Part shown: positions 54 through 16,581 of the stretch, piece by piece
Numbering within the stretch: the stretch's first letter is position 1
How the letters are laid out: the number at the start of each line of letters is the position of its first letter
DNA from: a virus
Virus record (IMG/VR): IMGVR_UViG_3300025168_000915
Span: 1 to 20,081 of that record
Direction: 5' to 3' (one strand)
Length of the DNA: 20,081 nucleotides
Notes under the pieces: model-generated
Told to the model about the DNA's origin: nothing
The model's input: the letters and a program-made list of their open reading frames with translations, nothing else
Database searches by the model: none
Program-made: the position numbers and the translations under genes

Positions 54-959
54 TTAAGACTGTCTTACGATATCAGCTCCAACTCCTGACTGAACTCCTG
101 CACTGTAACGAGCAACCATTCTCAAATTGTCAGAACCGTCTAACGTGCTCATATCCAATAGGTTAATACGTGTAGCATCACTTAAAAGGTCAGTTCCAAA
201 GAATAAGTTTGACTTCTCAGCAATGTTTACTTGGTTATCAATCATTCCAGGACAAACAGCAATTTTATAACCGTTATACATTGGAACGTAATCTCCATTC
301 ATGTTGTAAGCATTAACATATCCTAAAGCAGAAATTGCTTGGATATATAAAGCATAAGTCGTTGGACTCATGTAGATATGTAAATCTTCTTTTCTCATTA
401 CTGCTACTGGAATAGCTGCTACTGCAGTTCCTAAGTTAGCTATAATATTTGCTGCACTATAAGCTGCTGTTGCTGCTGATTGCACTACTGTTGCATCTTG
501 ACCTGGTAATAAAAGTCCTGCTGCTGAATTGAATCCTTCAAATTCTCCATTAGTAGCTGCTGTTCCAGTCCATATAGAAGTTTCAGTTGCGTTAGCTATG
601 ATTTCTCCCATGTAAGAGATAACGTAGTCCTCAAAAGATGCTGGAGGTGGTGCTCCTGCTCCTGCTCTCATTTGTAAAGCCTCCCAAGAAGAAAGTAAAG
701 TTTTCTTACACAAATCTAAGTTGATTTGTAGGTTTTTAGGCTCTAAGACCTTTTCAGTAAGGGCTAACGTACCGTGGTCTGTATAGTCGCATGTAGCGTT
801 TCTAACGACGTCTGAGCCTGCCATACGTTGTATGTTACTTTTAAATTTGATGTTTTCAATCATTGTTAAGTATTCCAATGAAGTTGCTTGCTTGAGTGCT
901 GCCGATATGTAGAATCCAGCTGCTTTGCCCGCGAACGAGCTAGTTACATTAAATGCCAT
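54..959 (-). CDS. Major capsid protein (probable)
   Basis: A 301-residue protein with no membrane segment or signal peptide, rich in Ala, Asn and Thr, as expected for a shell protein. The call rests mainly on position: it directly follows an acidic scaffold-like gene and a prohead protease, the usual protease-scaffold-capsid order. Its overall character also resembles short major capsid proteins of Bacteroidota phages. The N-terminal ~50 residues are mixed hydrophobic and polar, followed by a helical stretch that ends in an Ala/Gly/Pro-rich loop near residues 98-107. A 6-bp hairpin lies just upstream of the start and a strong hairpin follows the stop, fitting high expression. I see no diagnostic single motif, so HK97 fold membership is inferred. 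Confidence 0.75.
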   Translation of the reverse strand: MAFNVTSSFAGKAAGFYISAALKQATSLEYLTMIENIKFKSNIQRMAGSDVVRNATCDYTDHGTLALTEKVLEPKNLQINLDLCKKTLLSSWEALQMRAGAGAPPPASFEDYVISYMGEIIANATETSIWTGTAATNGEFEGFNSAAGLLLPGQDATVVQSAATAAYSAANIIANLGTAVAAIPVAVMRKEDLHIYMSPTTYALYIQAISALGYVNAYNMNGDYVPMYNGYKIAVCPGMIDNQVNIAEKSNLFFGTDLLSDATRINLLDMSTLDGSDNLRMVARYSAGVQSGVGADIVRQS

Positions 960-984
960 AATTTGTTGATTTTTAGTTAGTTAT

Positions 985-1000
985 GTAGAGTTATCTCTAC
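985..1000 (-). promoter_or_regulatory. Perfect 6-bp hairpin upstream of the capsid gene
   Basis: GTAGAG at 985-990 is the exact inverted complement of CTCTAC at 995-1000, with a 4-base loop. It sits in the 52-base gap between the scaffold-like gene and the capsid start at 959. The element CTAAAAATCAA follows it (about 965-976), close to the ATG. The hairpin may protect or define the 5' end of a capsid mRNA, or separate the two messages. There is no U-run, so it is not a normal terminator. Confidence 0.35.
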
Positions 1001-1011
1001 TTATTATTTAT

Positions 1012-1686
1012 TTATTTGTTTAAGTCGTGTAAGAATTTATCTCTGCTAGACATTTTTCTATAATCTGTTTTACTTACAGTTGGTCTATCTGAACTAAATT
1101 TATTTGTATCTAAAGGAGCTGATGAAGGTAATTCTCCTAGCTCAGTTTTCAGCTTTTCGTTTTCAGCTTTTAACTTTTTTAATTCATCTTCTGCTGAAAA
1201 TTCAATTACTTCTTTTGTAGTAATAGTTTTAGGATTTGTAGAAGGCTCTTCAGTTTCTACAGACATTTCTTCTACCTCGTCATCTCCACCCACTTTAGCT
1301 TCTTTAAGTTTAGCTACAGCATCTTCTAAGTTTTGGATTCTTTTCTCCATACCTTCCCAGTCTGCTACATCAGCATACTTTTTTTCTTCTTCTTCTTCAG
1401 CTAATTCTTCTTCTACTACTTCTTCAGTTTCAGTTTCCATAACCTCAGCTACGATACCTTCTTCTTCAACTCTAAAAGTAACTCCTGTATCAGTCTTGTA
1501 AGTTCCAACAGGTAATAAGATAGTAGTGCCATCTTCTGTAAGAACACTTATATCGACACCCTCAGCTAATTCGTCTGCTGTTGAAACGAAAATAGTTCCG
1601 TCCTCTGATTTAGCTTGATAAGCTAATTTAACATCTTCGCCTTTATCAAGACCAAGTGCTACTAATATTTGCTTTTTTAAATCCAT
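1012..1686 (-). CDS. Acidic coiled-coil protein, probable capsid scaffold
   Basis: A 224-residue, highly acidic protein. Residues ~45-85 look beta-rich (a small Gly-containing domain). A Glu-dominated stretch follows at ~85-103, then predicted coiled-coil segments near 110-130 and 165-187, and a charged C-terminus. Its place between the XkdF-like protease and the capsid gene, its acidity and its coiled coils are what is expected of a scaffolding protein that the protease removes during head maturation. No catalytic motif is seen. A copy of the 12-base late box lies 20 bases upstream of the ATG (1707-1718), suggesting its own promoter. It could instead be a head decoration or minor structural protein. 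Confidence 0.55.
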   Translation of the reverse strand: MDLKKQILVALGLDKGEDVKLAYQAKSEDGTIFVSTADELAEGVDISVLTEDGTTILLPVGTYKTDTGVTFRVEEEGIVAEVMETETEEVVEEELAEEEEEKKYADVADWEGMEKRIQNLEDAVAKLKEAKVGGDDEVEEMSVETEEPSTNPKTITTKEVIEFSAEDELKKLKAENEKLKTELGELPSSAPLDTNKFSSDRPTVSKTDYRKMSSRDKFLHDLNK

Positions 1687-1706
1687 AGTTTTGTTTTAAG
1701 TTCTGT

Positions 1707-1718
1707 TATATAATAGAA
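1707..1718 (-). promoter_or_regulatory. Late box copy 1 (TTCTATTATATA), before scaffold
   Basis: Exact 12-base word found four times in the window, here 20 bases upstream of the scaffold start. The partner word CTAAAATCAA lies at 1734-1743, exactly 15 bases upstream of the box on the coding strand. If TATTAT inside the box is a -10 element, the partner ends 18 bases before it, like a -35 element. A leader of about 15-18 bases would result. The repeat is seen; the promoter role is inferred. Confidence 0.5.
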
Positions 1719-1739
1719 TAGTTATTGTTCTGTTTGATT

Positions 1740-2981
1740 TTAGTAGTCAAAATTTACATTAGGGAATGCATCTCTTGGAATGTTTTGGAATGCTTTTAGA
1801 GTTGTTTCATACTTGCCTAAAGGTATATCTACGTCTAAAGCCTTTGCCGCTTGTTGAACTGCTTTAAGAGCATTTTCTAATTTATCAGAAATACTTTCGC
1901 CTTTACCATAAACTGACATAAATTTATCTTCTTGTTTAAATACTGCTTCTGCTGATTTTTCTCTTGAGTTGTAAGTTTTAGTTTGTGCAGCAGCAAGTTT
2001 TTCATAAACTTTTTCCACTTGAACTAATTCCATTTTTGCATCTCTTATTTTACCTTCTTCAGCAACAACTTTATCTAAAGCTTTATCCAATTTTTCTTCT
2101 GCGTCTTTATTTTTTACATCTTTTTCATCATACGCTCCAACTGCTTTTCTAACTGCTTCTTCAGACTTACTCAAATCAGATAAAATCTTTTCCATTTGAG
2201 CTTCTAAAGATTTTACAGTTTTCATATCTTTAAAATCCATTCTTTTAGCTTTACTCATTGTAGTAATTTTTCCTTCCCTTACTAATTCATTAAAAGCACT
2301 TAGTATTTCTGCTGTTGTTGGTTCTTTTGTTTTATTCATTTGTTCAAATTTATTAGTAAAGTAGCCTTCTATTGAAAGACCTTTAAGTTCTCCTGCTTTT
2401 ATCTTTTGCCAAAGCTCATCATTCTCAATCTTCATTTTAACGAACCAAGTGCCGTTAGGTAAGTCGTAGCCGTATAACTTTGACTTATCACTATCTCCTT
2501 CCTTAATCCAAGATTCAACTGTTAAAACGCCTGATACTCTGTCTTGGTGTTGATACGTTGCCTTGTGATGATTGTTATGTTTTAGGTAAAGTTCAGCAGC
2601 CTTTCTTACTGTTTCTTTAGAAAAGTAAACATAGTAATCAGAGTCAGTATTAGCGTCGTGTCTAAAGATTTGCTTGTTAGGAATTAAAGCAGGACTTATA
2701 AGCATTCTCTTTTCTTCATCTACTTTAGCAAAGGTTAAGTTGTTCTTTTCTTTTTTGAAAAAAACGAACTCAGATTCTATCGCAGGTGAGGTAACGAGCG
2801 ATATAGCGTCAATTGCCAACTCTTGATTATCGTCTTGTATTATTAGTTCTACTATTTTAGTTTCTTTCATATCTTCATAATAGTCTTTGTTATCTTCTTC
2901 ACATTCAGCTTTTGTATCGTATTTACAAGAGCCAGTCTTTCCCCATTTATATTTTCCGTTTTCACATTTTTCGCAAGGCAT
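1740..2981 (-). CDS. XkdF-like prohead protease with C-terminal coiled coil
   Basis: A 413-residue, three-part protein. Residues 1-38 form a Cys-rich tip (C3, C6, C19, C27), perhaps metal-binding. Residues ~42-215 match the XkdF-like phage protease pattern: an acidic strand ending in SLVTSPAIE (61-69), RMLISPALIP (92-101), YYVYFSKETV (116-125), a His at 145, a Gly/Trp strand near 177-179, and GLSIEGYF (201-208) with Ser203. H145 and S203 are the likely catalytic His and Ser by analogy with prohead proteases. Residues ~215-400 are Lys/Glu-rich coiled coil, suggesting a fused scaffold part. The late box ends 2 bases before the ATG. Probable role: cleaving scaffold and capsid during head maturation. 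Confidence 0.75.
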   Translation of the reverse strand: MPCEKCENGKYKWGKTGSCKYDTKAECEEDNKDYYEDMKETKIVELIIQDDNQELAIDAISLVTSPAIESEFVFFKKEKNNLTFAKVDEEKRMLISPALIPNKQIFRHDANTDSDYYVYFSKETVRKAAELYLKHNNHHKATYQHQDRVSGVLTVESWIKEGDSDKSKLYGYDLPNGTWFVKMKIENDELWQKIKAGELKGLSIEGYFTNKFEQMNKTKEPTTAEILSAFNELVREGKITTMSKAKRMDFKDMKTVKSLEAQMEKILSDLSKSEEAVRKAVGAYDEKDVKNKDAEEKLDKALDKVVAEEGKIRDAKMELVQVEKVYEKLAAAQTKTYNSREKSAEAVFKQEDKFMSVYGKGESISDKLENALKAVQQAAKALDVDIPLGKYETTLKAFQNIPRDAFPNVNFDY

Positions 2982-2983
2982 AG

Positions 2984-2995
2984 TATATAATAGAA
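2984..2995 (-). promoter_or_regulatory. Late box copy 2 (TTCTATTATATA), before protease
   Basis: Exact copy, 2 bases upstream of the protease ATG. CTAAAATCAA lies at 3011-3020, again exactly 15 bases upstream of the box, as for copy 1. The distance from TATTAT to the A of ATG is 5 bases, so a transcript started at normal -10 spacing would be leaderless. Alternatively the box could be a translation-initiation element. Confidence 0.5.
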
Positions 2996-3016
2996 TTTAA
3001 GTTAGTTTATTTGATT

Positions 3017-4804
3017 TTAGATTGTAGCTCTACGTCTTATATTTGCTAATTGATTTTGACTGTTAGACATTTCATCCGTTAAGACAAACGCTTTAATAGG
3101 CTCAGGTGCTACTCCGCCTGATATATCAAAGTTTCCTGACATCATTTGGGGTGCAGGGGTACTCGGTACTGCTCCTCCGCCACCTCCTCCTTCACTTCCT
3201 CCAGCTGGACTTCCACTTAATATCTTTTGAATTTGTACTGCTGAAAAAGCCCCAGCTAGACCTGCTTGTATAAATGGATAAGCAGGCATTAGTGCAGTTA
3301 AAGGTGACTCCTGAGCTGTTGTAAATGCGTTTTGAACTCCCTGTACTCCTGATATAGTAGCCTGTGCTACTGCTGCTGTTTTTGCTAATGCTGTTCCCTC
3401 TCCTGCTATTGCTGATATTAATTGTAATCCTGATTGAGCCATTCCTACTTTAGCGTCTCTAACTGCTTTATCTAGTTCTTTTTCTTTGTCTGCTGCTTCT
3501 TTTTTTATTCTTAATTTTTCAGCTTCAAAATTAGCTGTAATACCTGTTATATCTTCTTCAGCTTTCCTAGCCATATCTACTTTAATATCATAAGCATTTT
3601 GTAGTTCTTCTAACTCTCTTTCAGTACCTGAAAGACTTTCTGCTCTTAAAGTTCTTTGTGTTTCTAATAGCTCTTTTTCTAGTCCTACTGCGTTTGTCTT
3701 TTGCTCTGATAACTGACCTGTTATAGTTTCTTCAAGTTCAAGCTGTAAATTTTGAGCTTCCATTAAAGCTAACCTATTTTCATCATTATCTATACTGGCT
3801 ACTGCTAATTGAGCTGCTCTAATTTGTTTATCTATTTGTGCAGACTGAAGTTTCTGCTGTTCTTCTAATGATATTTTTAACTCTTTATTAGCTTTTATCC
3901 TTGCTGCAAATGTTTCATTTTCATCATCTCTTATTTGCCTAAGTAATTCTGCTTCTTTTAATTTTTCTGCATTTAATTTTTTAAATGTAACATCAGCAAA
4001 CAACGCATCTTTAACTGCTTTTGTGGTTGCTTTGGCTTGTTCAAAATTAGCTGATACAGATATTTCAGATAACTGTCCTGATGCTCTAGTATAAACTTCT
4101 GTAACTTCATCTATAGCAGCTCCGAAATTATCTACAATCGCTAGTCCAGCATCCTTAACTCCATTAAGAGTGTCTGCCATTTCAGATTTAGTTTCTTTCA
4201 TATCCTCCTTTATTCTTTCAACTTCTTTGGCAGCTTTAGATGTCTCATTCAAGTCTACTAACTCCCCATCTTTACCTATTGTAAAGGCTAAAGGATTCTT
4301 TCCTATTGCATCCTTAACTTCATAATAAGCTAATATTATAGCCTGCATACTTAACTTTAAAGCATCAAAAGCTAGAGAAAGTGGAGCAAGTGCTATAGTC
4401 TTTAAATTATCTAAAACTGTACCAAAAGCACTAAAATTCTTAGAGCCTTGCGTAACATAATAAAAAGTATCTATAAGAATATTTACTAACTGATTAAATG
4501 TAGTAGAAATAGTAGTAGTAACATTAGAGATAGTGTCCATAACTTTCTGATTTTTAGACATTGCTTCTTTAAGTGCTGTAAATGCTCCTGCTACAATAGT
4601 AATAATACCTAAACCACCTAATACTGTACCAACTCCTTTTAATGCTCTTCCAAAAATCCCTACACCTTTTGAGGCTGATTTTCCTGATTCACCAATAGAC
4701 ATATTTGCTTTAGATAGTTTCTCTGTAGCCGTAGTAGCCTTATTCACGTCTTTAGTTACTGCTCCAATATTAGACTTAACTTCTATTTCTAAAATCTCTG
4801 CCAT
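3017..4804 (-). CDS. Tail tape measure protein
   Basis: A 595-residue protein with long heptad-like helices over most of its length. A hydrophobic, Gly-rich segment lies at about residues 55-82, and long charged helices fill ~255-450. The C-terminal region (~455-535) is Ala/Gly-rich, with an alternating hydrophobic pattern ending in GAFSAVQIQKIL, followed by a poly-Gly/Pro linker. This alternating C-terminal segment is typical of siphovirus tape measures. At roughly 0.15 nm per residue (established rule of thumb), it would set a tail near 90 nm, at the short end. It is transcribed after the tail-tip and fibre genes and just before the head genes, an uncommon position. No peptidase domain is seen. 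Confidence 0.75.
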   Translation of the reverse strand: MAEILEIEVKSNIGAVTKDVNKATTATEKLSKANMSIGESGKSASKGVGIFGRALKGVGTVLGGLGIITIVAGAFTALKEAMSKNQKVMDTISNVTTTISTTFNQLVNILIDTFYYVTQGSKNFSAFGTVLDNLKTIALAPLSLAFDALKLSMQAIILAYYEVKDAIGKNPLAFTIGKDGELVDLNETSKAAKEVERIKEDMKETKSEMADTLNGVKDAGLAIVDNFGAAIDEVTEVYTRASGQLSEISVSANFEQAKATTKAVKDALFADVTFKKLNAEKLKEAELLRQIRDDENETFAARIKANKELKISLEEQQKLQSAQIDKQIRAAQLAVASIDNDENRLALMEAQNLQLELEETITGQLSEQKTNAVGLEKELLETQRTLRAESLSGTERELEELQNAYDIKVDMARKAEEDITGITANFEAEKLRIKKEAADKEKELDKAVRDAKVGMAQSGLQLISAIAGEGTALAKTAAVAQATISGVQGVQNAFTTAQESPLTALMPAYPFIQAGLAGAFSAVQIQKILSGSPAGGSEGGGGGGAVPSTPAPQMMSGNFDISGGVAPEPIKAFVLTDEMSNSQNQLANIRRRATI

Positions 4805-4814
4805 AGTTTTATTT

Positions 4815-5669
4815 TTATAATGATACTCCTGTTTTAATTTGTGTAAATGATACTGTTAAAGCCCATTCTATCGTCATATTAGCAGCTCCTTTTACTTTAA
4901 CATAAAAGTCAGTTCCTAATACAGCAGCGGTAGGCTGCCATCCTGTAACTGTTCCTGAGCTTTTAATAGCATCTCTTTCTCTCTGTATGCTTAATGTTCC
5001 TGATTTATTAATTATCACACCTCTCTCTACCCAACTTCCGTAATCTCCAACAGAACCACCAGCAGAACCTCCTACCCTTACAGCTACTACATAAACATGA
5101 AAGAATAAAATAGCATTTTCAGGGACTGGAAAATAGCTGTCAGTTTTATTATTCATGTATGAAGCTTTGTTTCCTGAGGTGCTAGTTTGCCTTCCAAATA
5201 AAACAGTTATATTTTGTCTTTCACCTAAAGAATCTCCATCAGTATTACCCCCTATTACTATAGAGTTATCAGCTGTAGCTTCTCCTAATGTACCTGATAC
5301 GTTAGCATTATTTATTCCATTTGCTATTTCATTTTGGTTACCTGTTATAATACTATTTCTAGATAATCCTTTAACAGTATTATTCTCTCCCATTACTAAA
5401 GTATTGTTAGTGCCTGTTTCAGTTGAGTTTCCTGTACCGTATGTTCTGTTATTCTCATTAGCTACTACTTCATTTAAATTTGTATTGAATCTAAAGGTTG
5501 AACAAGTACCCGAAGCTTTGTTATAAGTGTACCCATAAGCTTCACATTGTAACTGATTAGGAGTTAATTCATTTGTTCCGTCTGTAAATGTTACATCTCC
5601 AAGAATTGAAACTGAAGAAGGCTTTACTGTGAATCCTGTTAAGTATGGTATAGGTTCTCTTGAAGGCAT
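4815..5669 (-). CDS. Tail fibre / receptor-binding protein with YadA-like beta-roll
   Basis: A 284-residue protein. Residues ~75-160 contain short repeats of the type N-x-hydrophobic-x-x-G: NTLVMGENN, NSIITGNQN, NANVSG, NSIVIGGN and NITVLFG, at roughly 14-18 residue spacing. This is the pattern of YadA-like left-handed beta-rolls in trimeric adhesins. A Cys pair (C42, C56) lies ahead of it. The C-terminal ~110 residues are beta-rich with Gly-rich loops and may be the receptor-binding or trimerisation domain. Its last base overlaps the first base of the tail-tip gene product's stop/start junction (shared position 5669). Inferred role: trimeric adhesin on the tail tip. Confidence 0.6.
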   Translation of the reverse strand: MPSREPIPYLTGFTVKPSSVSILGDVTFTDGTNELTPNQLQCEAYGYTYNKASGTCSTFRFNTNLNEVVANENNRTYGTGNSTETGTNNTLVMGENNTVKGLSRNSIITGNQNEIANGINNANVSGTLGEATADNSIVIGGNTDGDSLGERQNITVLFGRQTSTSGNKASYMNNKTDSYFPVPENAILFFHVYVVAVRVGGSAGGSVGDYGSWVERGVIINKSGTLSIQRERDAIKSSGTVTGWQPTAAVLGTDFYVKVKGAANMTIEWALTVSFTQIKTGVSL

Positions 5670-8401
5670 TATGGTATAAGTATAAATTCTACTGTTGCTA
5701 AATTATTAGGCTTGTAATCAATCTTATTAACTCTAAATACTCTATTCTTCATATAAACTCTGTCATTGAACTTAAATGTATTAATATCAGCAGGACTCAA
5801 ATTAACTTTAATTGTCATTATCCTAGTATTTGGATTATAAAGTTCTGCATAGTATGGAAGCCAATACATATTGAATAAATTATTTACAGTTGAAGTTCCT
5901 ACTCCTGTCATTAATTGACATTCTCCGAAATGAAAATCTAATGCTGCTGAATTTGATGGTACTGTAGATAAATGACTGAATTGTAAAAAGTCAGATTGGT
6001 TATCATAAGTAACGCCATTTTGAGCAGGTATATAATAAGATGCTCCTGTAGATTTAATTCCATTGTTATACATAATTCTCGGACTGTTTTCAAATCCTTC
6101 TTCAACATCATCATTCATAGCATATATTGAAGGAGTAATAAATTGAGAAAAATTATCATCCAAAGGTTTGACTACTGTAGCTGCAAAAGGTTCTGCTACT
6201 ATTTCATCTTCACCATCTAAAATATTAAATTCGTTCCCTGCATTATACTTCTTACTTCCGTACAAGTGTCCTCCTACTTGATTCTTATACTGATTAAAAG
6301 CAAAATCATCATCATCTTCAACAAACTTAAAAATTGTCTTTCTATTTAAGTCAGTTAAAGGTCTTAATTTCATTTCTGAAACATCTATCTTATCAGTCCA
6401 ATCGTGCTGAATACCTCTATTAGCTAAAGTATTACCTGCTGTTGCTGTAGGTATAAATACATCTGAGTAAGGTTCTATTATAATATTGTTAGGATTATCT
6501 TCATCTACTAAAGTTACTAAGTTAAACATTGTCATCAAACCTTTCATAAATTCCCATTGACCTAGTTCTCCTCTTAGTGTTTGTAGGATAGCGTCTGTTG
6601 TAATGTTAGTAACTCCTAAAATAAAGATAACTACAACATCAAAACTTCCTCCAGATATTCCTGCTGACTGTTGAACAACTCCTGCTGAACTTGCTTTAAA
6701 TTGAGCTTGTAAAGTATCTCCTGTATCTAAAGAAATATTAAGATTTCCTTGATAAATATACGAAGCTCCTGCTGCTAATGTAATAACACCTGAGTAATTA
6801 AATTCTAAACTGTTCTTCAAATATCTTGCTTCTACAGTTCTAGCAACTGTATCTGTATTTGTAATTTTATAACTATAATTTATATTATAAGTTTCGTTTA
6901 TAGCTGTTGCTGTAATAATATTAGTAGTACTATCGTAATTTGGAGGAAAGATAAAGAAAGCTATTCCGAGTTGGTCAAGAACAAAGTTCGTGTAACTTGT
7001 ACCTGCAAAATGAGTTCCTTGCCCTCCATTACAATTAAAAGTATTTGTAGAGTCAGTTACTGAAAGAGTAGGAATATTATCAGCACCCCAATTAAAATCC
7101 ATATAAAGCTTCTTAAAGTCAGCTTCATTAAAAAAATCTGATTCATAAGTAAAGTCTGTAGCTTCAAATATTCTGTCTATTAAATACTTGATATTTATAA
7201 AAGGACGAAATATTTGTTCTAAAGATGTATACTCAGGATTTCCAGATGTAGCCGATGTTCCTGAAGTTCCTCCTACTAATATTTGGTGATTCCAATCTAC
7301 GAATGGATATTTAACTGTACTATAAGCATCTCTAAATCCTGATGTACTTGAATTTGTATAAGTTATTCCTGTTCCTGAGTCATTCCAACTATATACAATT
7401 TGTGTCCTATTATATTCATGAGCTAATTCTTTAAAGTCTAAATCTCTAAACGCTCTATCTTTTAAGACATCTGCAAAAGCTATTACTTCTGAATATAGAT
7501 TTACGTTGTAGCTTATCTCCCCTTCTTTATCTGTAACATCTAATAGCCTTAAATAACCTTCAAATAAAATAAATCCATCTTGCTTTAAAACGCATTGAGT
7601 TCTTCTATAAGGATTAAATATAACTCCATCATAAGACCTAGTTATCTCAAATATAGCATTAAATATTGTATTATTTCTTTTGGTTGAAGGTAGATTAAAT
7701 GCCTTAGAATAGGATTGTACTTTTTCTGCTACATTTTTAAAGTCATCTACACTTAAAGTTAATGGTAAATCTTCATCTTCATAAAGGTCGCAAATTGCTT
7801 GTCCATCTCCTAATATTTGAACTGCCCCTGAAGGTACTGCTCCTACTACAGGTTGTATTGAAATATCTGTTACTGTAGCTGTAGCGACAATAGTATTAAT
7901 ATACACTATCATAACTGTACTATCAGTAGATTGAGCTGTAAAATTATCAGTTATTTGCGTAACGTTTGCAGCACCACCTCCTCCTGAATATATATTAGTT
8001 CCGTTTGCTATTTGGGTAACAATAGTACCTGTAGTAGCTGCACTAAGATTAATCGTAATTGTATATTGCTGACCAATCACTAAGTTAGTTAGCTTTTGAT
8101 AAACTCCTGCTGTACTTCCTGTTCCTACTATAGATTTTAAAGTTAAACTGTTTAAAACTACTGAAGGGTAATCTGGTGTTCCACCGTTATTATTTCTAAA
8201 TCTATACCATGTATTAGCAATCAAAGGAGGTGCGTTAGTAAGAGTATCTACATAAGGTGGAGATACTGTACTTGTATAAACCCCTGTACTTCCTAAACCA
8301 TTAAAATTTATACCATTAACAAGAAACTCAGTAGTAGATGTAGACATTACATTATATTGACCTTCATAGTTCTGAGGATATACTATTAATTGAACGCTCA
8401 T
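5669..8401 (-). CDS. Large tail-tip / baseplate hub-like protein
   Basis: A 910-residue protein, the largest in the window. Residues ~60-190 look like a beta-sandwich of the carbohydrate-binding type (WYRFRNNNG, GVYQKLTNLVIGQQYTI, then alternating strands). From ~195 the protein changes character, beginning with an acidic segment (DLYEDEDLPLTLSVDDF) and a hub-like body. Around 615-650 there is a helical stretch (WEFMKGLMTMFNLV) followed by IIIEPYSDVF, a pattern I associate with tail proteins of Bacteroidota phages. It ends with VEFILIP. It lies between two other large tail genes with 1-base overlaps, indicating one translationally coupled tail-tip operon. The exact role (hub or receptor-binding) is inferred. 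Confidence 0.55.
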   Translation of the reverse strand: MSVQLIVYPQNYEGQYNVMSTSTTEFLVNGINFNGLGSTGVYTSTVSPPYVDTLTNAPPLIANTWYRFRNNNGGTPDYPSVVLNSLTLKSIVGTGSTAGVYQKLTNLVIGQQYTITINLSAATTGTIVTQIANGTNIYSGGGGAANVTQITDNFTAQSTDSTVMIVYINTIVATATVTDISIQPVVGAVPSGAVQILGDGQAICDLYEDEDLPLTLSVDDFKNVAEKVQSYSKAFNLPSTKRNNTIFNAIFEITRSYDGVIFNPYRRTQCVLKQDGFILFEGYLRLLDVTDKEGEISYNVNLYSEVIAFADVLKDRAFRDLDFKELAHEYNRTQIVYSWNDSGTGITYTNSSTSGFRDAYSTVKYPFVDWNHQILVGGTSGTSATSGNPEYTSLEQIFRPFINIKYLIDRIFEATDFTYESDFFNEADFKKLYMDFNWGADNIPTLSVTDSTNTFNCNGGQGTHFAGTSYTNFVLDQLGIAFFIFPPNYDSTTNIITATAINETYNINYSYKITNTDTVARTVEARYLKNSLEFNYSGVITLAAGASYIYQGNLNISLDTGDTLQAQFKASSAGVVQQSAGISGGSFDVVVIFILGVTNITTDAILQTLRGELGQWEFMKGLMTMFNLVTLVDEDNPNNIIIEPYSDVFIPTATAGNTLANRGIQHDWTDKIDVSEMKLRPLTDLNRKTIFKFVEDDDDFAFNQYKNQVGGHLYGSKKYNAGNEFNILDGEDEIVAEPFAATVVKPLDDNFSQFITPSIYAMNDDVEEGFENSPRIMYNNGIKSTGASYYIPAQNGVTYDNQSDFLQFSHLSTVPSNSAALDFHFGECQLMTGVGTSTVNNLFNMYWLPYYAELYNPNTRIMTIKVNLSPADINTFKFNDRVYMKNRVFRVNKIDYKPNNLATVEFILIP

Positions 8402-9828
8402 TATATTGCTTGTGTTCTAAGTGTCTTAGTTTTTTCAACTTCAAAAGTGTACTGCATTAGCTTATCATTAGCTACAGTCTTTTTAGTATAACTAGAAGTA
8501 GTAAGTCTTACTGGTGTAACATATTTATTTAATGATGAGTTTGTAGTATCTGTTTTAAATCCTTCTAATATATATACTTCAGGACTATTTATAAGGTCTT
8601 GAAACCATTCTGAATCTGCTTCACTTACAAAGTCTGTATTCATTTGTATTTTTTCTGTAGCGTTTACTCTAAATGCTTTTTTACCACCTTTAAAGCTATC
8701 TATTCTATATGCGCTTTCATTCCAAGAACCTTCTAGCTGTTGGTATGTACTTCCTTTTGTTGAAATAGTATTAATAGATTTCATGGTGAAAGTGTAGTAA
8801 TCCCAAGCTCCCCATTGATTTAGCCAAGTAAGTCTAATAGGCTCAAAACCTTTAAGAGTAGGACAGTTTAAATTTACTGTATATTTTGAGGACATTATTT
8901 GTCCTGAATCATTCATAACAACTAATTCATAATATCCTCCTTGTATAGTTCCTGCACTAACAAGACCTTGAAACATTGTACTACTTCCTTGTAAATTACC
9001 TGGAAACATTCCAAAGAATAAAATAGATGCTTGTATATCTGATTGAGGATAATCAAATCCACCATTTGCAGGAATATGATATATTTCTTCATAACTTAAT
9101 AATGCACCAGCAGAGTTATAATATTTAATCTCTACGCTTACTGTACCATCTAAATTTTGTAGACTGTAAGCGTTATACATTAATAAAGCGACAGTTCCAT
9201 AATCATCTAAATTAGCATATTGAGTAGTAGGTGCATTAGTTAAGAATTTCTTAGTTACTCCATCTAGTAAAAAATTAGAGTATAAGTCATATCCAAAATT
9301 TACACCTGATAATATTAATTCATCAGAGTATTTTAAATAGCCATTAAAAATTACAGTAAGACCAGATATTTTTTCATTGTCAGTAACAAAATCACCTAAA
9401 GCATCTATGTATTCAACTTTAAATTTTACGACTAAATATCTTGATGTATTTATGTTTCCTGAGTACCTATCTATTAAGTGAATGGGTACATTAGTATCTG
9501 AAGTATTTACTGCTAATTTATAAGCACTTCCAACTCTTGCTAAGTTATCAGCATTTACAAAGCTTTCAATAATAGGTCTAAAGTTAAACATACCTACTCC
9601 AGCATTATTAGGAGTAGTTTTAAATGTACCTACTAAGTCATTAGTCATACTTACGTTAGGCGGTGTTCCATTACTTATATAAACTTCAGCTATAAATTTA
9701 ACTCTTGTAAAACTTGAAACTACCTGAGAATTAGATACTGTATAAATAATTTCTTGACCTACAGGAATTACTGTATCAAAAGTACCTGGATTTGATAGCG
9801 GATGCTGTTCTATTATTGTTTGACTCAT
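8401..9828 (-). CDS. Tail structural protein, possible distal tail protein
   Basis: A 475-residue, beta-rich protein without membrane segments. The N-terminal ~160 residues have a sandwich-like pattern. The segment LTWLNQWGAWDYYTFTMKS (about residues 332-350) resembles the conserved N/W-G-x-D-x-y-x-F motif seen in Dit-like tail proteins of Bacteroidota phages, and the C-terminal ~120 residues follow it as a compact beta-domain. It sits between the gp10-like protein and the 910-residue tail-tip protein, sharing one base with each neighbour at the stop/start junctions. I infer a role at the tail end or baseplate. It could instead be a minor tail fibre. Confidence 0.45.
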   Translation of the reverse strand: MSQTIIEQHPLSNPGTFDTVIPVGQEIIYTVSNSQVVSSFTRVKFIAEVYISNGTPPNVSMTNDLVGTFKTTPNNAGVGMFNFRPIIESFVNADNLARVGSAYKLAVNTSDTNVPIHLIDRYSGNINTSRYLVVKFKVEYIDALGDFVTDNEKISGLTVIFNGYLKYSDELILSGVNFGYDLYSNFLLDGVTKKFLTNAPTTQYANLDDYGTVALLMYNAYSLQNLDGTVSVEIKYYNSAGALLSYEEIYHIPANGGFDYPQSDIQASILFFGMFPGNLQGSSTMFQGLVSAGTIQGGYYELVVMNDSGQIMSSKYTVNLNCPTLKGFEPIRLTWLNQWGAWDYYTFTMKSINTISTKGSTYQQLEGSWNESAYRIDSFKGGKKAFRVNATEKIQMNTDFVSEADSEWFQDLINSPEVYILEGFKTDTTNSSLNKYVTPVRLTTSSYTKKTVANDKLMQYTFEVEKTKTLRTQAI

Positions 9829-10373
9829 TATTTTACTATTGTTAAACTGTTAATTATATCTTCCTTTACCTCTCCTAAAAATTCTTTTGGCAATCTATTT
9901 AAGGCAAGTCCTAGAGGTCTTTGAAAAAAGCTCAGACTTTTGATTCCATCTCTTTTTATAGACGCACTTATAAAATATGCTAGTCCTGATATATACTGTC
10001 CACTTTTTTTAGACCTTCCTCTCCCTGTTCCTTTAGGTTTTATTCCCCTTCGTTTTATCCATTTAGAAATAATATCTATAGGCGGCCCATGCTTTGTATA
10101 TCCTTTACCTGGACTTTTTTTTATATTTCCTTCATAATCTGTATAGCTTTGTTTTTTCTTGTTTCCTGAAACTCCTTTATCTACAAATTTTCCATAATCT
10201 AACATATAAAATTCTACTATAAAGCTTTTACCATCTGGAACTACTTTAAATTTAATAGAATTATATAAATCTTTATTTACATTTTTTTTAGCTTTAGTCA
10301 AATTAGTTCTAGCCTGTTTAACTACATATTTTCCAAAACTATCTAAATAATTTTCTATGTTAGTAGTTTTCAC
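9828..10373 (-). CDS. HK97 gp10-like neck / head-tail joining protein
   Basis: A 181-residue basic protein. The N-terminal helix (FGKYVVKQARTNLTKA) is followed by LYNSIKFKV, an Asp-containing strand, and YMLDYGKFVDKGVSG (about 57-71). This resembles the 'Y-x-x-F-V-E-x-G' core of HK97 gp10-like neck proteins. A Lys/Gly-rich loop (~72-95 and 113-125) and a helix ending in FFQRPLGLALNRL follow; a late 'ff.p' motif is also common in this family. It shares single-base stop/start junctions with both neighbours. Inferred role: joining or completing the tail at the connector. Family assignment is by eye. Confidence 0.55.
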   Translation of the reverse strand: MKTTNIENYLDSFGKYVVKQARTNLTKAKKNVNKDLYNSIKFKVVPDGKSFIVEFYMLDYGKFVDKGVSGNKKKQSYTDYEGNIKKSPGKGYTKHGPPIDIISKWIKRRGIKPKGTGRGRSKKSGQYISGLAYFISASIKRDGIKSLSFFQRPLGLALNRLPKEFLGEVKEDIINSLTIVK

Positions 10374-10825
10374 TATTCTAAGCCTACAAATATTTCTACT
10401 CTAGGATTATAAGAAGCACCTACAGGCTTAACTTGTAAAGATGCTATGTTTTCCATAGTTCCAAAACTAGGACTTGTATCTTCTTCAGCTAAAGCTATTG
10501 CAGCACCTTGACTAAGTATATGCGAATTACCTGCTGTAATAGTTACTTGATAGTTAGAAGCAGTAGTTACTATTGCTAATTCTATTTCAGCATTTGCATC
10601 AAGATTTGTTACCCTGATATATTTCGTTCTATCTAAATCAATAGCTCCTGCTGAAGTGTGAGGAGTTGTTGCAAATACTGCTACTGTAGTAGTCTGAGAA
10701 TGTGCACAAGTTACTATCCTTTCAAATACATCATTGATACCTGCTGTTGTTACTGAGTTTACTGAGCCTCTAAGACTTCCGTTAAGTGTTACTGTTTCGC
10801 TAATTGTTGTTACTAAATCTGGCAT
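10373..10825 (-). CDS. Beta-rich virion protein, possible tail tube protein
   Basis: A 150-residue protein, nearly all beta-strand by composition (Thr, Val, Ala, Ile), with no catalytic motif, membrane segment or signal peptide. It contains KYIRVTNLDANAEIELAIV (about 68-86) and then YQVTITAGNSHIL, the look of a small beta-sandwich. It follows the probable tail-terminator gene and precedes the gp10-like gene. Of the genes present, it is the best candidate for a major tail tube or a head-surface protein, but this rests on size, composition and position only. Confidence 0.4.
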   Translation of the reverse strand: MPDLVTTISETVTLNGSLRGSVNSVTTAGINDVFERIVTCAHSQTTTVAVFATTPHTSAGAIDLDRTKYIRVTNLDANAEIELAIVTTASNYQVTITAGNSHILSQGAAIALAEEDTSPSFGTMENIASLQVKPVGASYNPRVEIFVGLE

Positions 10826-10829
10826 ATTT

Positions 10830-10901
10830 TTATAAATTAATTGTTATTTTAAATTTTTTCCAACCTATTTCTACTGTTACCCATCTTAACCTCCATTTCA
10901 T
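10830..10901 (-). CDS. Tiny 23-residue ORF between two structural genes
   Basis: Unrecognised. The ORF fills the whole gap between two structural genes. Its ATG shares one base with the TAA of the upstream gene (TAATG at 10899-10903), and its TAA ends 4 bases before the next ATG. The product starts MKWRLRWVTVEIGWKK and is basic, with three Trp. The re-initiation geometry makes translation plausible. Chance cannot be excluded for so short a frame. Confidence 0.35.
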   Translation of the reverse strand: MKWRLRWVTVEIGWKKFKITINL

Positions 10902-11467
10902 TAATAACCAGCACCCTTAGTAGATACAGGAATATCACACGTCTGAAAGTCATTCTGTACTAGAACTCCTATATTAAAAACCCATCCAGTTAATAAGTTA
11001 TCGAACCTCTCAGAAAATGGCTCTATATTAAATTGGTCTTGCGTAAAGTATATCGGTTCGTTAATATCATTAACACCTAGTAAAGATTGTCTTGAACTGT
11101 GCCTCAACATTCCTATAAAATCTGTAACTATTTGTAAGCTTTCATTAAGTACATCTTGCTCATTACTAAGTGTTTTGTATAACTTAGTAAACTCATCCGT
11201 AAGAGTATTTAATATTTCACTTCTATTTGTAGTCCAGTTTTCTCTCTCTGTTACTTGACTCATTATAAAGATTTGGAAATTGTAGGTTAATTGACTATCT
11301 CCAGTACTTACGCTTGTAGGGTTAATATGCAGTAAAGGAAACTTAGTTACTTTAGATAAATCAATATCAAATATATCTCCTACAGAAGTTGTATGTATTT
11401 GCCTATGATGCTCAGCTAATCTAAGCAAAGTATTTACAACATTATTGTACGTCTTATTATTAACCAT
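10901..11467 (-). CDS. Probable tail terminator / completion protein
   Basis: A 188-residue protein without membrane segments. A helical N-terminus (residues 5-20) is followed by FPLLHINPTSV (about 43-53), a beta segment LTYNFQIFIMSQ, and then a long helix bearing ILNTLTDEFTKLYKTL. Near the C-terminus, GWVFNIGVLVQNDFQTCDIP resembles the end of tail-terminator-type proteins in Bacteroidota phages. The strand-helix-strand layout and size fit gpU-like terminators. It starts inside the end of the frameshift chaperone ORF (8-base overlap). The assignment is an inference from pattern and neighbours. Confidence 0.4.
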   Translation of the reverse strand: MVNNKTYNNVVNTLLRLAEHHRQIHTTSVGDIFDIDLSKVTKFPLLHINPTSVSTGDSQLTYNFQIFIMSQVTERENWTTNRSEILNTLTDEFTKLYKTLSNEQDVLNESLQIVTDFIGMLRHSSRQSLLGVNDINEPIYFTQDQFNIEPFSERFDNLLTGWVFNIGVLVQNDFQTCDIPVSTKGAGY

Positions 11468-11690
11468 TTCTTTTTACTTTATTTTGTGAGCTTAAATCTG
11501 TTTCATAACTTAGCCAAGTCAGACATTCTAATAGGCTCAGTTTTGTTATTCGCTCTAAGTTTACTATTTTTTCATTACATAGACGGTGCATAACTCCAAA
11601 CCATCCCCATTTATTTGCCATATTTTCAGTAGCTACTGCATCTTCATTACCTTCTGCTTGTCTATCAAAAATGATTGCAAAATTCTCCAC
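11460..11690 (-). CDS. Tail assembly chaperone, -1 frame extension (GT-like)
   Basis: A 76-codon frame with only a GTG as a possible start at 11690. It overlaps the end of the upstream chaperone gene by 58 bases in the -1 frame and stays open upstream through the T9 tract. The region WGWFGVMHRLCNEKIV...LLECLTWLSYETD looks like the C-terminal 'T' part of gpGT-type chaperones, with a Trp near the start and an L-x-x-L-x-Y end. Independent translation is unlikely. If made by -1 slippage at 11711-11717, the product is a 257-residue fusion: 174 residues of the first frame plus 83 of this one. Its probable role is to link the chaperone to the tape measure during tail assembly. Confidence 0.65.
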   Translation of the reverse strand: MENFAIIFDRQAEGNEDAVATENMANKWGWFGVMHRLCNEKIVNLERITKLSLLECLTWLSYETDLSSQNKVKRNG

Positions 11691-12232
11691 AATTCCTTTC
11701 CGAAAGTGTAAAAAAAAACTAATGCACTTTGCACTTGTACTGTAGACATCTTTTTCATTTCTTCAGTCCGCATTGTTATATCACCATCATAAGAATCAAT
11801 AATATAAATATCATTCTTTTTTTCTTTTATCGGTCGATAGAGTACTGCCATTAATTCTGGAAGATTTGTATATATACCGTCTTTAATAAACTGCTCTATG
11901 TCTGCATACTCACCAAGAGTAATTTTTTCTAAATCAGGATGAAAACCATACTTTACTCCATTAATCTCTATCAGTCTTTTAAGCTTTGTATCACTATCAG
12001 CTTGCATTTGGCTAATCTTACTCATAATACTAACTACATCTGATAAAGCTAATTCTTTTATTAAGGTCTTAGGAATGTTTGTAAGCTCTGCTATTGTTTC
12101 AGTAGCATTTTCAGTCTTAGTACCTTTTTCAAATTCAATAAGTTTAATATAAGATTCTAATGTAACATCTGCCCAACTATTGATTAGCTTAAACTCTTTT
12201 ACTTTGCCTTCTTTTTTAATTTTAACTTTCAT
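11633..12232 (-). CDS. Tail assembly chaperone (G-like), first frame
   Basis: A 199-residue protein without signal or membrane segments. The N-terminal ~35 residues form strands plus SWADVTLESYIKLIEF. The centre carries YGFHPDLEKITLGEYADIEQFI, and later NLPELMAVLYRPI. This pattern is common in small pre-tape-measure proteins of Bacteroidota phages, some of which are annotated as T4-type base plate proteins. The frame ends shortly after a T9 tract. Its overlap with a -1 frame ORF matches the classic G/GT chaperone arrangement. It follows TerL with a 32-base gap containing the late box 4 bases before its ATG. Role: tail assembly, inferred. Confidence 0.6.
   Translation of the reverse strand: MKVKIKKEGKVKEFKLINSWADVTLESYIKLIEFEKGTKTENATETIAELTNIPKTLIKELALSDVVSIMSKISQMQADSDTKLKRLIEINGVKYGFHPDLEKITLGEYADIEQFIKDGIYTNLPELMAVLYRPIKEKKNDIYIIDSYDGDITMRTEEMKKMSTVQVQSALVFFYTFGKELWRILQSFLIDKQKVMKMQ
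11710..11718 (-). promoter_or_regulatory. T9 slippery tract, candidate programmed -1 frameshift site
   Basis: On the coding strand the chaperone frame reads GTT TTT TTT TAC here, so T TTT TTT (11711-11717) is a valid X XXY YYZ heptamer. A -1 slip gives L-H-F-R-K-G-I, leading directly into the second ORF without a stop. That frame is open from about 11764 down to 11460. A stimulatory downstream RNA structure was not identified. Transcriptional slippage on the nine-base run is an alternative. Confidence 0.6.
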
Positions 12233-12236
12233 ACAC

Positions 12237-12248
12237 TATATAATAGAA
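12237..12248 (-). promoter_or_regulatory. Late box copy 3 (TTCTATTATATA), before tail chaperone
   Basis: Exact copy, 4 bases upstream of the tail chaperone ATG and in the short gap after TerL. CTAAAATCAA lies at 12254-12263, only 5 bases upstream of the box, 10 bases (about one helical turn) closer than in copies 1 and 2. TATTAT is 7 bases from the ATG. This is where a separate tail operon would begin. Confidence 0.5.
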
Positions 12249-12264
12249 ATTAGTTGATTTTAGT

Positions 12265-13596
12265 TTACTGCACAAAATACCTTCCAAAGTTACTATCTAT
12301 CTCATAAAACATTCTCATAGCTAAAGCATCAGCATAATCAGGAGAACGTCCTAAAATAGCTTTAACTGTATCTTTTGGTATTATCTGTAGTTTATTATCT
12401 TTGTCTGCGTCCTTAGTCCTGACTTGCTCTAACTCCTCAGTTATGTAATTCTTAACATTAACATCTGAACAACTTACTCCAATTTGTCCTTTGTTTATTT
12501 GGTCTGCTAATTTGTAATAGCATTGTGTTTTAAGATTCTGATAGTTTTCTCCTTTTATAGGTCTAGCATTATTTGTAAATCCTTGACAACGTAAGTAATC
12601 TTTAACACCACCACCTACTCCATCTTCATCTACTATAATATTCCTAAGATTAACTCCATTCTCCTGTTGTAGTTTCTTAATCTCGTCCACAACCTCATTT
12701 ACAGCCGATTTAAGGATAGTTCTTATGTATCTAATGTGTAACCCTTGCCAAAGCATTATAACCGTCTTATCGCTTCCGAATCGTGCTACATCACAAGTTA
12801 TATATTTATCACCTTCTATTCCTTTTTGACTGAACATACTCATTATAGAATTGTAGTCTATCAAACTATCTGCTGTTGCATCATATTCCCAATTACCAAA
12901 TAGAAGTCTTTGTTTACTTAATTCATCTAATTGAGATAGCTGTGTTTCATAGTGCTTAGAGATATAGTTATTATCTATAACTAAAGACTGTATAAACTTT
13001 CTGTAATGTTTTATTGTATTATCTTGTGCAGGTCTGTAGTATTCTGAGTACACCCAATTCTTAGCTGGATTACAAGTCATAAGTAGCTTAGGAATTAAAT
13101 CATTCTCATCAAGTTTATATCTTATCCTAGATGCTACAACGTTCTTAGCCTTCTCAGTTATTTGGTTAGCCTCATCTATGAAGGCAGAAGTAATCTCAAG
13201 GGACCCAAGTGAGTCGAAATTTCTATCTGATGGATATAAGAACAAGTCCTTAAGTATTATCTCAGAACCATTGTAAAAGGTTATAACATTACTAGAGCCG
13301 TTATAAGTATAATCCTTAATAGCTTTTAAGTTCCACTCAGTACACACTTCAAAAAATGTGTTCAATGTGGTTTTTTTCAAAGAATCGAGCTTGCTTCTTC
13401 CCATTAAATATCTAGTCTTAGGATATTGAAGGCACATAGTAATTAAGTAGCTACAACCTACCCAAGACTTTCCACCACCTGCTGCTCCTCCAAATAAAAC
13501 CTCTTTAGTCTTATCGTCAAATAAATACTTTAAGCATTCCTTTTGTTTAGGCGTAAATTGAGGATTGATTTCTAATAAGTCAGGTTTAATCTCCAA
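12265..13596 (-). CDS. terL: Terminase large subunit (TerL)
   Basis: A 443-residue packaging motor with an N-terminal ATPase and a C-terminal nuclease. Walker A is GGAAGGGKS (36-44). Walker B is AFIDEA (138-143), and LMTCNPA (172-178) is the coupling motif. RNase H-like nuclease acidics are D269 in TCDVARFG, the D323/D325 region in VDEDGVGGG, and D420/D423 in PDYADA. The length is at the short end for the family but all motifs are present. The start chosen is TTG at 13594-13596: no ATG or GTG occurs in frame upstream before a stop at 13600, and the next ATG would remove Walker A. It overlaps the end of TerS by 11 bases. Role: pumping DNA into proheads at the portal and cutting it. Confidence 0.93.
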   Translation of the reverse strand: MEIKPDLLEINPQFTPKQKECLKYLFDDKTKEVLFGGAAGGGKSWVGCSYLITMCLQYPKTRYLMGRSKLDSLKKTTLNTFFEVCTEWNLKAIKDYTYNGSSNVITFYNGSEIILKDLFLYPSDRNFDSLGSLEITSAFIDEANQITEKAKNVVASRIRYKLDENDLIPKLLMTCNPAKNWVYSEYYRPAQDNTIKHYRKFIQSLVIDNNYISKHYETQLSQLDELSKQRLLFGNWEYDATADSLIDYNSIMSMFSQKGIEGDKYITCDVARFGSDKTVIMLWQGLHIRYIRTILKSAVNEVVDEIKKLQQENGVNLRNIIVDEDGVGGGVKDYLRCQGFTNNARPIKGENYQNLKTQCYYKLADQINKGQIGVSCSDVNVKNYITEELEQVRTKDADKDNKLQIIPKDTVKAILGRSPDYADALAMRMFYEIDSNFGRYFVQ

Positions 13597-13939
13597 GATT
13601 TATATTGATTTTGATTCTTTCATTTCCTGAAGTTAAGTCTATTTCTTGCTTCTCATTATACCCTCGCTTACGTCCTCTTGTTCTTAGGAAGAAAGTAGTC
13701 GCAGTTGTATTACCTTCCTTTATTTGTTTCTTTAGACTTGTTTCTGCAAAGTCAATAAACTTACTATCTATATCATCTACTGCTTTCTTGTATTCTTCAT
13801 CACTCTGCATCCAAGCATAGTGTCGGCTTCTTGTTATCTCTGCTTTTTCACAAGCCTCTGTTACTATACCTAATGACATCTCTAGTGCAGCTAGTAGCTT
13901 CTTTTTGCCCTCCTGTGTCCTCTTTTGTTCTGTTTCCAT
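13586..13939 (-). CDS. terS: Terminase small subunit (TerS)
   Basis: A 117-residue protein directly ahead of TerL. Residues ~12-47 form an N-terminal helix-turn-helix (ALEMSLGIVTEACEKAEI, then SRHYAWMQSDEEY), followed by a helical oligomerisation region with FIDFAETSL (~61-69). ATTFFLRTRGRKRGY (79-93) is a basic, aromatic motif typical of small terminase subunits. The C-terminal tail is polar. Expected role: recognising packaging sites on phage DNA and recruiting TerL. The late box sits 2 bases upstream of the ATG, making this the head of the packaging unit. Confidence 0.8.
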   Translation of the reverse strand: METEQKRTQEGKKKLLAALEMSLGIVTEACEKAEITRSRHYAWMQSDEEYKKAVDDIDSKFIDFAETSLKKQIKEGNTTATTFFLRTRGRKRGYNEKQEIDLTSGNERIKININLGD

Positions 13940-13941
13940 AT

Positions 13942-13953
13942 TATATAATAGAA
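13942..13953 (-). promoter_or_regulatory. Late box copy 4 (TTCTATTATATA), before TerS
   Basis: Exact copy, 2 bases upstream of the TerS ATG. It shares the longer word TAATTTCTATTATATA with copy 3. TATTAT to ATG spacing is 5 bases. No CTAAAATCAA partner lies upstream, because the preceding DNA is the end of the NinB-like gene. Confidence 0.5.
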
Positions 13954-13954
13954 A

Positions 13955-14338
13955 TTACTCGTATTCATTTGGTAGCATTAGTCTGATACCTAGTTCAGTC
14001 ATTGCCCATATTCTTATTTGGTCTGCATATATCTCAAAGGCTTTGCTATCCATTCTAGCTGTAGACTTGACTACTTGGATTCCTACATTCCTATCGTTTA
14101 TTTCAATACTATTCCATTCACTTGAGAACTTGACTTTTAATAGGTCGTGTATCTCATCAGGGAAGTAGCCTAGCTCATTAGACAAGACCTGTACTATACA
14201 ACTCCAATAATAGTTATTCTGCATATTGCTTCTTGTGTTTCTTTGTTTCTTAACGTCTACTAAATAGTCATTCCCTAATTCCTTTAAATAGTTTATTAAA
14301 GTTTGCTTATCTTTATCACAATTTATCACGAACTTCAT
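13955..14338 (-). CDS. ninB: NinB-like recombination protein
   Basis: A 127-residue protein matching the NinB pattern (lambda Orf/NinB family, which binds ssDNA and SSB and assists recombination). The key pieces are TRSNMQNNYYWSCI (about 35-48), GYFPDEIHDLLKVKF, STARMDSKAFEIYADQIRIW, and a C-terminal GIRLMLPNEYE. In the family, the 'R-S-x-x-Q-N-x-x-Y-W' segment and the 'P-x-E-Y' end are conserved. The length is close to the lambda protein. Its ATG overlaps the stop of the zinc-ribbon gene (TAATG), so it is the last member of a coupled cluster. Confidence 0.75.
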   Translation of the reverse strand: MKFVINCDKDKQTLINYLKELGNDYLVDVKKQRNTRSNMQNNYYWSCIVQVLSNELGYFPDEIHDLLKVKFSSEWNSIEINDRNVGIQVVKSTARMDSKAFEIYADQIRIWAMTELGIRLMLPNEYE

Positions 14339-15137: not shown

Positions 15138-15253
15138 ATTACTATTATTTTCATTATTAATATTTTATTTAATTGTATTGGGGAGGCAACCACACCCCCC
15201 CTCTACTACTCAGGTCTAAAATTTAAAAGCTTTTAGGTCTTACCCTTTATTAA
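15138..15253 (-). promoter_or_regulatory. Intergenic spacer with hairpin and palindrome, likely control region
   Basis: The longest truly non-coding stretch in the window (116 bases). It holds a 7-position hairpin in minus-strand RNA: a run of seven G (15195-15201) facing CCTCCCC (15180-15186), with one G-U pair and an 8-base loop. It also holds the perfect 12-bp palindrome TAAAAGCTTTTA (15224-15235) and two direct AGGTCT copies (15212-15217, 15235-15240). No U-run follows the hairpin. I infer an operator, attenuator or processing site between the sigma-like unit and the next cluster. Confidence 0.4.
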
Positions 15254-16573: not shown

Positions 16574-16581
16574 CAAAGATA
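16574..16581 (-). promoter_or_regulatory. TATCTTTG, candidate Bacteroidota -7 box
   Basis: TATCTTTG on the coding strand is a full match to the TAnnTTTG -7 consensus of Bacteroidota housekeeping promoters (established). It lies in the 21-base gap upstream of the sigma-like unit, 4 bases before the ATG at 16569. No convincing TTTG -33 element was found at normal spacing; the nearest is an imperfect ATTTCG further up. If used, transcription would start near the ATG. Confidence 0.4.

Follow-up and report, generated by a model that had tools for sequence, protein, structure and literature searches.

A two-box element before the late genes of uncultured, mostly marine phages, a probable late promoter for a phage-encoded ECF-like sigma factor

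Why should the same 12-letter word stand, letter for letter, directly in front of four late genes of one virus? The question is raised by a 20,081-nt stretch of DNA (IMG/VR virus record IMGVR_UViG_3300025168_000915; hereafter, the window), whose main genes all lie on the minus strand. The original prediction, made from the letters of this stretch, had noticed four exact copies of TTCTATTATATA in short gaps upstream of the scaffold, protease, tail chaperone and TerS (terminase small subunit) genes, at 20, 2, 4 and 2 bases from the respective ATG, and had proposed that they represent a shared control element. We find that the word is the core of a longer, bipartite and strictly directional element, placed before the same few late units in a whole family of phages. 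On the sequence evidence, we consider it very probable that this element is a late promoter, and that it is read by the phage's own sigma factor, a protein resembling those of the extracytoplasmic function (ECF) type.

Anatomy and distribution of the two-box element

All four copies are where they had been reported, on the minus (that is, coding) strand and at the distances given, and the exact word occurs nowhere else in the window, with no copy on the plus strand. Dinucleotide-preserving shuffles (n=100) yielded a mean of 0.04 copies and a maximum of 1, none of them (0/100) reaching the four observed. When up to two mismatches are allowed the enrichment vanishes (19 matches versus 14.1 expected), so that the word is unusable in a loose form; the signal consists of the exact word and a second box. 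This upstream box, [CA]AA[AC][TC]AAA, begins 18 bases before the word and has its AA in all of the 83 non-redundant sites that we aligned, giving [CA]AA[AC][TC]AAA-N10-TTCTATTATATA-N2-R as the full element. With one mismatch at most, the two-box pattern matches the same four places in the window and no others; none of the remaining 26 window genes is preceded by it. At the scaffold site the core lengthens into an 18-bp near-palindrome, TTCTRTTATATAAYAGAA (1701-1718), which the other three window sites lack. No match to Rfam was found in the window, and the sole match of a literature search on the word itself was an unrelated paper.

We collected relatives as loci from public virus contigs, retrieved through the large terminase subunit (TerL), the protease and the sigma gene. 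Those that carry the late element number in the hundreds, and are uncultured and mostly marine. Across 160 loci obtained through TerL and the protease, the word is the commonest 12-mer of all, with 287 copies on the coding strand and 8 on the other, as compared with 0 for the reversed word and an average of 1.5 for scrambled words. A 36-position model of the full element was run over the window together with 230 relatives (231 sequences, 2.18 Mb) and finds 484 coding-strand sites and 0 on the opposite strand; the model was trained on these same loci, and the count therefore describes the family and is no independent test, with the empty reverse strand as internal control. At the working threshold there is hardly anything between signal and background. 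Rather than being scattered through coding regions, the exact coding-strand words carry the full element in every case (361/361), which holds for none of the 10 on the opposite strand. The sites always precede the same few late units, with the element found before the scaffold gene in 80/81 relatives, the protease in 85/86, the tail chaperone in 124/124 and TerS in 74/87; longer records hold four or five full elements each, all in the same direction. The idea of a shared control element confined to late-gene gaps is thus upheld well beyond the window in which it arose.

The two boxes keep a single spacing in 87 of 96 distinct sites, though the distance to the ATG ranges from 0 to 43 nt. Fixed spacing, one orientation and a place at the head of transcription units are what is expected of a two-box directional promoter, and all three are found here. 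Moreover, the site at the TerS position is kept when the gene behind it has been swapped for an unrelated one, either a ParB-like gene or a TerS of another type. In L023, L071, L083 and L403 an inserted ParB-like gene (MKQQVK...NPR) lies between the late promoter and the terminase genes. The alternative TerS genes (GGKR.GAGRK start; L286, L287, L289, L300 and L356) have the same promoter followed by a 28-32 nt leader with a palindrome, TTGATTAATCAA or TTGAATAATCAA, a possible operator or mRNA structure.

Element and phage family also coincide in a scan of the collection for TTCTATTATATANNATG, which returned at least 116 contigs. Among the matches listed, the full element is present in 89, of which 87 carry a family protein and one more (L203) is a fifth-unit gene of the family, whereas L194, with the element but no window-type protein, looks like chance. 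The 27 contigs, again among the matches listed, that contain TTCTATTATATANNATG without the element have no family protein.

Two further features point to transcription initiation. Position 14 after the start of the word is a purine in 36/36 distinct sites with leaders of at least 10 nt, and in 95% of the sites whose ATG is not at 2 nt; the base before it is usually a pyrimidine or A, as fits a start site. In addition, a fifth late unit, which lies outside the window, has an intrinsic terminator directly upstream of its element in 30/33 distinct sites; at all other sites the figure is 1/183, that one being a fifth-unit-type gene, and shuffles gave 0. RNA arriving from upstream thus stops there, and transcription has to begin anew at the element. 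It is the fixed second box, the purine at a fixed point, the upstream terminator and the co-variation with the phage sigma (below) that together lead us to a late promoter.

On this reading, each copy would mark a directional promoter of about 34 bp, of which it forms the -10-like core (TTCTATTATATA, about -14 to -3); the -35-like box, [CA]AA[AC][TC]AAA, would lie at about -32 to -25, and both would be recognized by host RNA polymerase carrying the phage sigma. Transcription would start at the purine 14 bases past the first core base. At the commonest spacing this purine is the A of the ATG itself, and the late mRNAs of TerS and the protease, which have this spacing in the window, are thus predicted to be leaderless.

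A candidate sigma factor and its co-variation with the core

The proposed cognate factor is the 188-aa product of a gene in the window (Table 1) that is present in 22/22 related records tested. It matches the TIGR02937 profile (E 3e-7) over residues 19-183, which covers both domains (regions 2 and 4). Its AlphaFold 2 model (mean predicted local distance difference test score, pLDDT, 74.9) consists of two helical domains joined by a disordered linker, that is, a predicted sigma 2 plus sigma 4 fold without sigma 1.1 and sigma 3. The best matches in structure comparison are the ECF sigma factors SigL, RpoE, SigH, SigW and SigE; domain 4 gives Z 9.7 and a root-mean-square deviation (rmsd) of 1.1-2.4, and domain 2 compared with SigR gives Z 9.1 and rmsd 2.0, the whole-chain rmsd being high because of the linker. 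A search of solved structures by sequence with the sigma profile returned nothing useful.

One sublineage of the family has changed its core. In the five records behind L416, L420, L421, L424 and L434, 19/19 full elements have the core [AT]TACATTATATA and not [AT]TCTATTATATA, amounting to a switch from TTCTAT to TTACAT (TCTAT to TACAT) with the upstream box unchanged. Their sigma factors carry S74C, R76N, S77N, 78A and Y87N at region 2 positions that are otherwise near-invariant, and their region 4 helix is unchanged. Among the 146 loci with both sigma and element, AC cores occur in the four to five with the C/N/N residues and in 0/141 of the others; a Fisher value for these counts takes no account of common descent and is not to be read as a probability. 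L430 and L407 share the changed sigma residues, and their records end before the late genes. L434, of the switched lineage, also has what looks like a CT core; it falls within a coding region, and we discarded it as a chance match. The equivalent helix of Mycobacterium tuberculosis SigH contacts the -11 and -10 bases (PMC6411747), and RpoE has been re-targeted by swapping its specificity loop (PMC8103513). Given its co-occurrence and co-variation with the element, on which its role rests, this gene likely encodes the factor for the late promoters.

The sigma gene itself appears to be under host control. A TAnnTTTG word stands 3-4 nt before the ATG of the gene preceding sigma in 8/9 non-redundant lineages, its middle two bases varying as the consensus predicts. 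TTTG/TAnnTTTG is the -7 consensus of the flavobacterial and Bacteroidota primary sigma (PMC6847099, PMC9723704). We predict from these letters that TATCTTTG, the window's copy, belongs to a leaderless primary-sigma promoter of the sigma operon. Host polymerase with its own sigma would thus make the phage sigma first, which would in turn switch on the four or five late units: packaging, tail, protease, scaffold-capsid and the fifth unit outside the window. The late element has no TAnnTTTG, and a host-type TTG...TAnnTTTG late promoter was tested and rejected. Gene starts with a late core are all free of TAHHTTTG over 50 nt.

Downstream of the sigma-operon gene 15254-15661 comes a strong G-run hairpin, AGAGGGGGGGTGTGGTTGCCTCCCC (15138-15253, minus strand). 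The pattern has 49 copies among the loci studied and no Rfam match, and may be a terminator or an RNA structure.

Natural controls and the weighing of alternatives

Sister phages without the sigma provide a natural control. The 80 loci with a phi10:1-type TerL have 0 elements; 12 of them hold a weak, distant sigma-like match and 68 have none. In the 68 sigma-less loci TAHHTTTG precedes 61 of 620 non-redundant gene starts, versus 17.6 expected, and in the window's family it is nearly absent as a signal before gene starts (12 versus 8.5). The named phages 11b, phi10:1 and P12002L have neither the element nor a close sigma. Of 79 loci with a divergent sigma, 16 lack the element; in 15/16 of these, L389 being the exception, the locus stops no more than about 3 kb past sigma, so most are simply truncated. 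In a distal group with a weak sigma homologue (L495, L497, L498 and L499), words like AATAGTTATTAGGTTATG stand before late genes, three of them in L498; these may be an analogous late promoter of another sequence. A separate late motif sought throughout the distal sigma group L463-L509 gave a weak hint in L498 alone.

Could the late promoter be read by something else, namely a phage RNA polymerase or activator, or an alternative sigma of the host? The core is long and invariant, like the promoters of single-subunit polymerases, and what we have seen are genome fragments alone. The T7-like polymerase family PF00940 had no match in 22 records, but the control was silent too, so this search does not demonstrate absence. 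Nevertheless we regard another reader as unlikely. The change from CT to AC at every core goes with changes at near-invariant residues of the phage sigma, a sigma is present in every related record tested, conserved -31/-30 bases with a box at fixed spacing fit sigma domain 4 plus domain 2, and the 80 loci that have a related TerL but no close sigma are devoid of elements.

Several observations weigh against pairing the late promoter with the phage sigma. The case as a whole is built on sequence. The sigma switch is one clade and hence one evolutionary event, further sigma residues have also changed in that clade, and residues 74-78 can be placed on known ECF structures no more precisely than to about one helical turn. 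The window sigma scores 30.2 bits with TIGR02937, below the curated NCBIfam cut-off of 42.9, a cut-off that its homologue in the metagenome-assembled contig L525 (61-62% identical) passes with 50.7 bits; and in hhalign comparisons with five cellular ECF factors region 4 alone was aligned, with a probability of 14.9. A second phage factor may also take part. Finally, leaderless mRNAs are a minority in flavobacteria (5.5%; PMC9723704), and leaderless late genes would therefore be unusual in flavobacterial hosts.

An element acting in RNA, either as a translation start signal or as a processing site in late transcripts that read through from upstream, would also be strand-specific and often lie, as here, just 2-4 nt from the ATG, and the A at -3 matches a Kozak-like preference of flavobacteria (PMC6847099). 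We consider it improbable, given that the ATG distance varies between 0 and 43 nt while the box spacing stays, that 26 other genes also needing translation lack the element, and that in the fifth unit the intrinsic terminator ends the upstream RNA just ahead of it. Least plausible of all is a different kind of DNA site at module borders (a repressor operator or a packaging, replication or recombination site), to which copies flanking the protease gene and the TerS-TerL pair and the near-palindrome at 1701-1718 might point, since the palindrome belongs to the surroundings of the scaffold site, no inverted element occurs (484 versus 0) and a gene start always follows, the element stays when the gene behind is replaced by an unrelated one, and 2 nt to the ATG leave no space for a separate promoter.

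Gene map, related systems and implications

The predicted promoters and the genes that they concern are collected in Table 1. As to the gene names used in the original prediction, family matches confirm TerS and the protease, as well as TerL; the scaffold is named by its position, and the tail chaperone by its position and an overlapping -1 frame open reading frame (ORF).

Table 1. Predicted promoters and relevant genes of the window
Feature	Coordinates	Strand	Description or basis
P(scaffold)	1704-1737	-	box CAAACAGA 1729-1736; core TTCTATTATATA 1707-1718; predicted start A 1704
P(protease)	2981-3014	-	box CAAATAAA 3006-3013; core 2984-2995; predicted start A 2981 = A of ATG
P(tail chaperone/tail operon)	12234-12267	-	box AAACTAAA 12259-12266; core 12237-12248; predicted start G 12234
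P(TerS-TerL)	13939-13972	-	box CAAATGAA 13964-13971; core 13942-13953; predicted start A 13939 = A of ATG
Host-type -7 element TATCTTTG	16574-16581	-	4 nt before ATG of gene 16213-16569
Capsid gene	54-959	-	downstream of scaffold gene
Putative scaffold gene	1012-1686	-	position between protease and capsid; no family match
Head maturation protease (Peptidase_S78_2)	1740-2981	-	family match E 5e-19
Tail assembly chaperone-like gene, first in tail operon	11633-12232	-	phrog_32199 (no function); overlapping -1 frame ORF
TerL, next after TerS	12265-13596	-	family matches
TerS	13586-13939	-	family matches
ECF-like sigma gene, 188 aa, proposed cognate factor of late promoters	15654-16220	-	TIGR02937 and predicted fold
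Small gene, first of sigma operon, directly upstream of sigma gene	16213-16569	-	

The predicted start of P(scaffold) is separated from the ATG by 17 bases, and this promoter probably also serves the capsid gene. That of the tail operon lies 2 nt before the ATG, with the upstream box overlapping the TerL stop, and the upstream box of P(TerS-TerL) sits inside the end of a NinB-like gene. An ORF at 11460-11690 overlaps the chaperone gene in the -1 frame, and nine consecutive T stand close by (11460-11720, minus strand); both fit the programmed frameshifting known from tail assembly chaperones. The tail genes lie between the terminase genes (12265-13939) and the head genes for protease, scaffold and capsid (tail and head together at 54-12232). 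The window TerL and its counterpart in Flavobacterium phage 11b share 53% identity. No portal gene was recognized in the window, unlike in phages 11b and phi10:1, where the portal follows TerL. In a 3-Mb metagenome-assembled genome labelled Pseudooceanicola, the family phage contigs G021:C4 and G021:C49 hold 7 and 3 elements and the other contigs none. The two metagenome-assembled genomes that contain relatives, labelled Pseudooceanicola and Euryarchaeota, are probably mis-binned, and the first label is probably not that of the host. The indications of a host among the Flavobacteriia come from the host-type -7 elements and the TerL relatives.

Phage late sigma factors are known from SPO1 (gp28 and gp33/34) and T4 (gp55), where they steer host RNA polymerase to phage-specific late promoters, and the proposed sigma would likewise redirect the host enzyme to a late promoter class. 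Unlike the ECF-like factor and two-box promoters proposed here, those systems belong to unrelated Bacillus and E. coli phages and use different promoter words; T4 gp55 is without a proper domain 4 and requires a sliding clamp. In Gram-positive phages, Ltr/RinA/ArpU proteins and Xpf of PBSX have helices resembling sigma region 4 and induce terS and the late operons. Among them, Ltr/RinA/ArpU work as activators at promoters of host type, whereas the protein studied here has a predicted full sigma-like domain 2, with which the -10 core co-varies. The closest parallel in architecture is with the ECF sigmas, which are about 190 aa long, have domains 2 and 4 only and read stringent two-box promoters of fixed spacing. 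SigH of M. tuberculosis contacts -31/-30 in the -35 element and -11 to -9 in the -10 element (PMC6411747), close to the conserved positions of the phage element. The differences are that viral late genes and not a stress response would be served, that the 12-base core is invariant and that sequence similarity to cellular ECF factors is weak. The Bacteroidota primary-sigma promoter, in turn, is proposed here for the sigma operon and is enriched before genes of the sister phages without sigma, and the late element does not contain its TAnnTTTG.

In the literature that we searched, which covered few subscription journals, no description of this late promoter or sigma was found, nor any of late promoters in Bacteroidota phages, and to our knowledge little is known of the timing of their genes. 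Phage late sigmas as such are not new; an ECF-like version with mostly near-leaderless late genes appears to be undescribed.

The sequence thus offers a complete, testable circuit, in which a host-type promoter would drive the sigma operon and the sigma would act on four or five late promoters. The element can also serve as a tag for late transcription units across hundreds of contigs from uncultured phages. Should transcription indeed start on the first base of the ATG, as predicted, these late genes would allow leaderless translation to be tested in a host that makes no use of Shine-Dalgarno sequences. The TTCTAT-to-TTACAT change found in nature, accompanied by matching changes in sigma, gives material on the joint evolution of an ECF-type sigma and its promoters. 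We would give even odds to the broadest version of this picture, in which these widespread uncultured phages keep a private sigma-promoter pair and make leaderless or near-leaderless late mRNAs, and in which one lineage has recoded all its promoters along with the sigma contacts, leaving phages that speak separate dialects.

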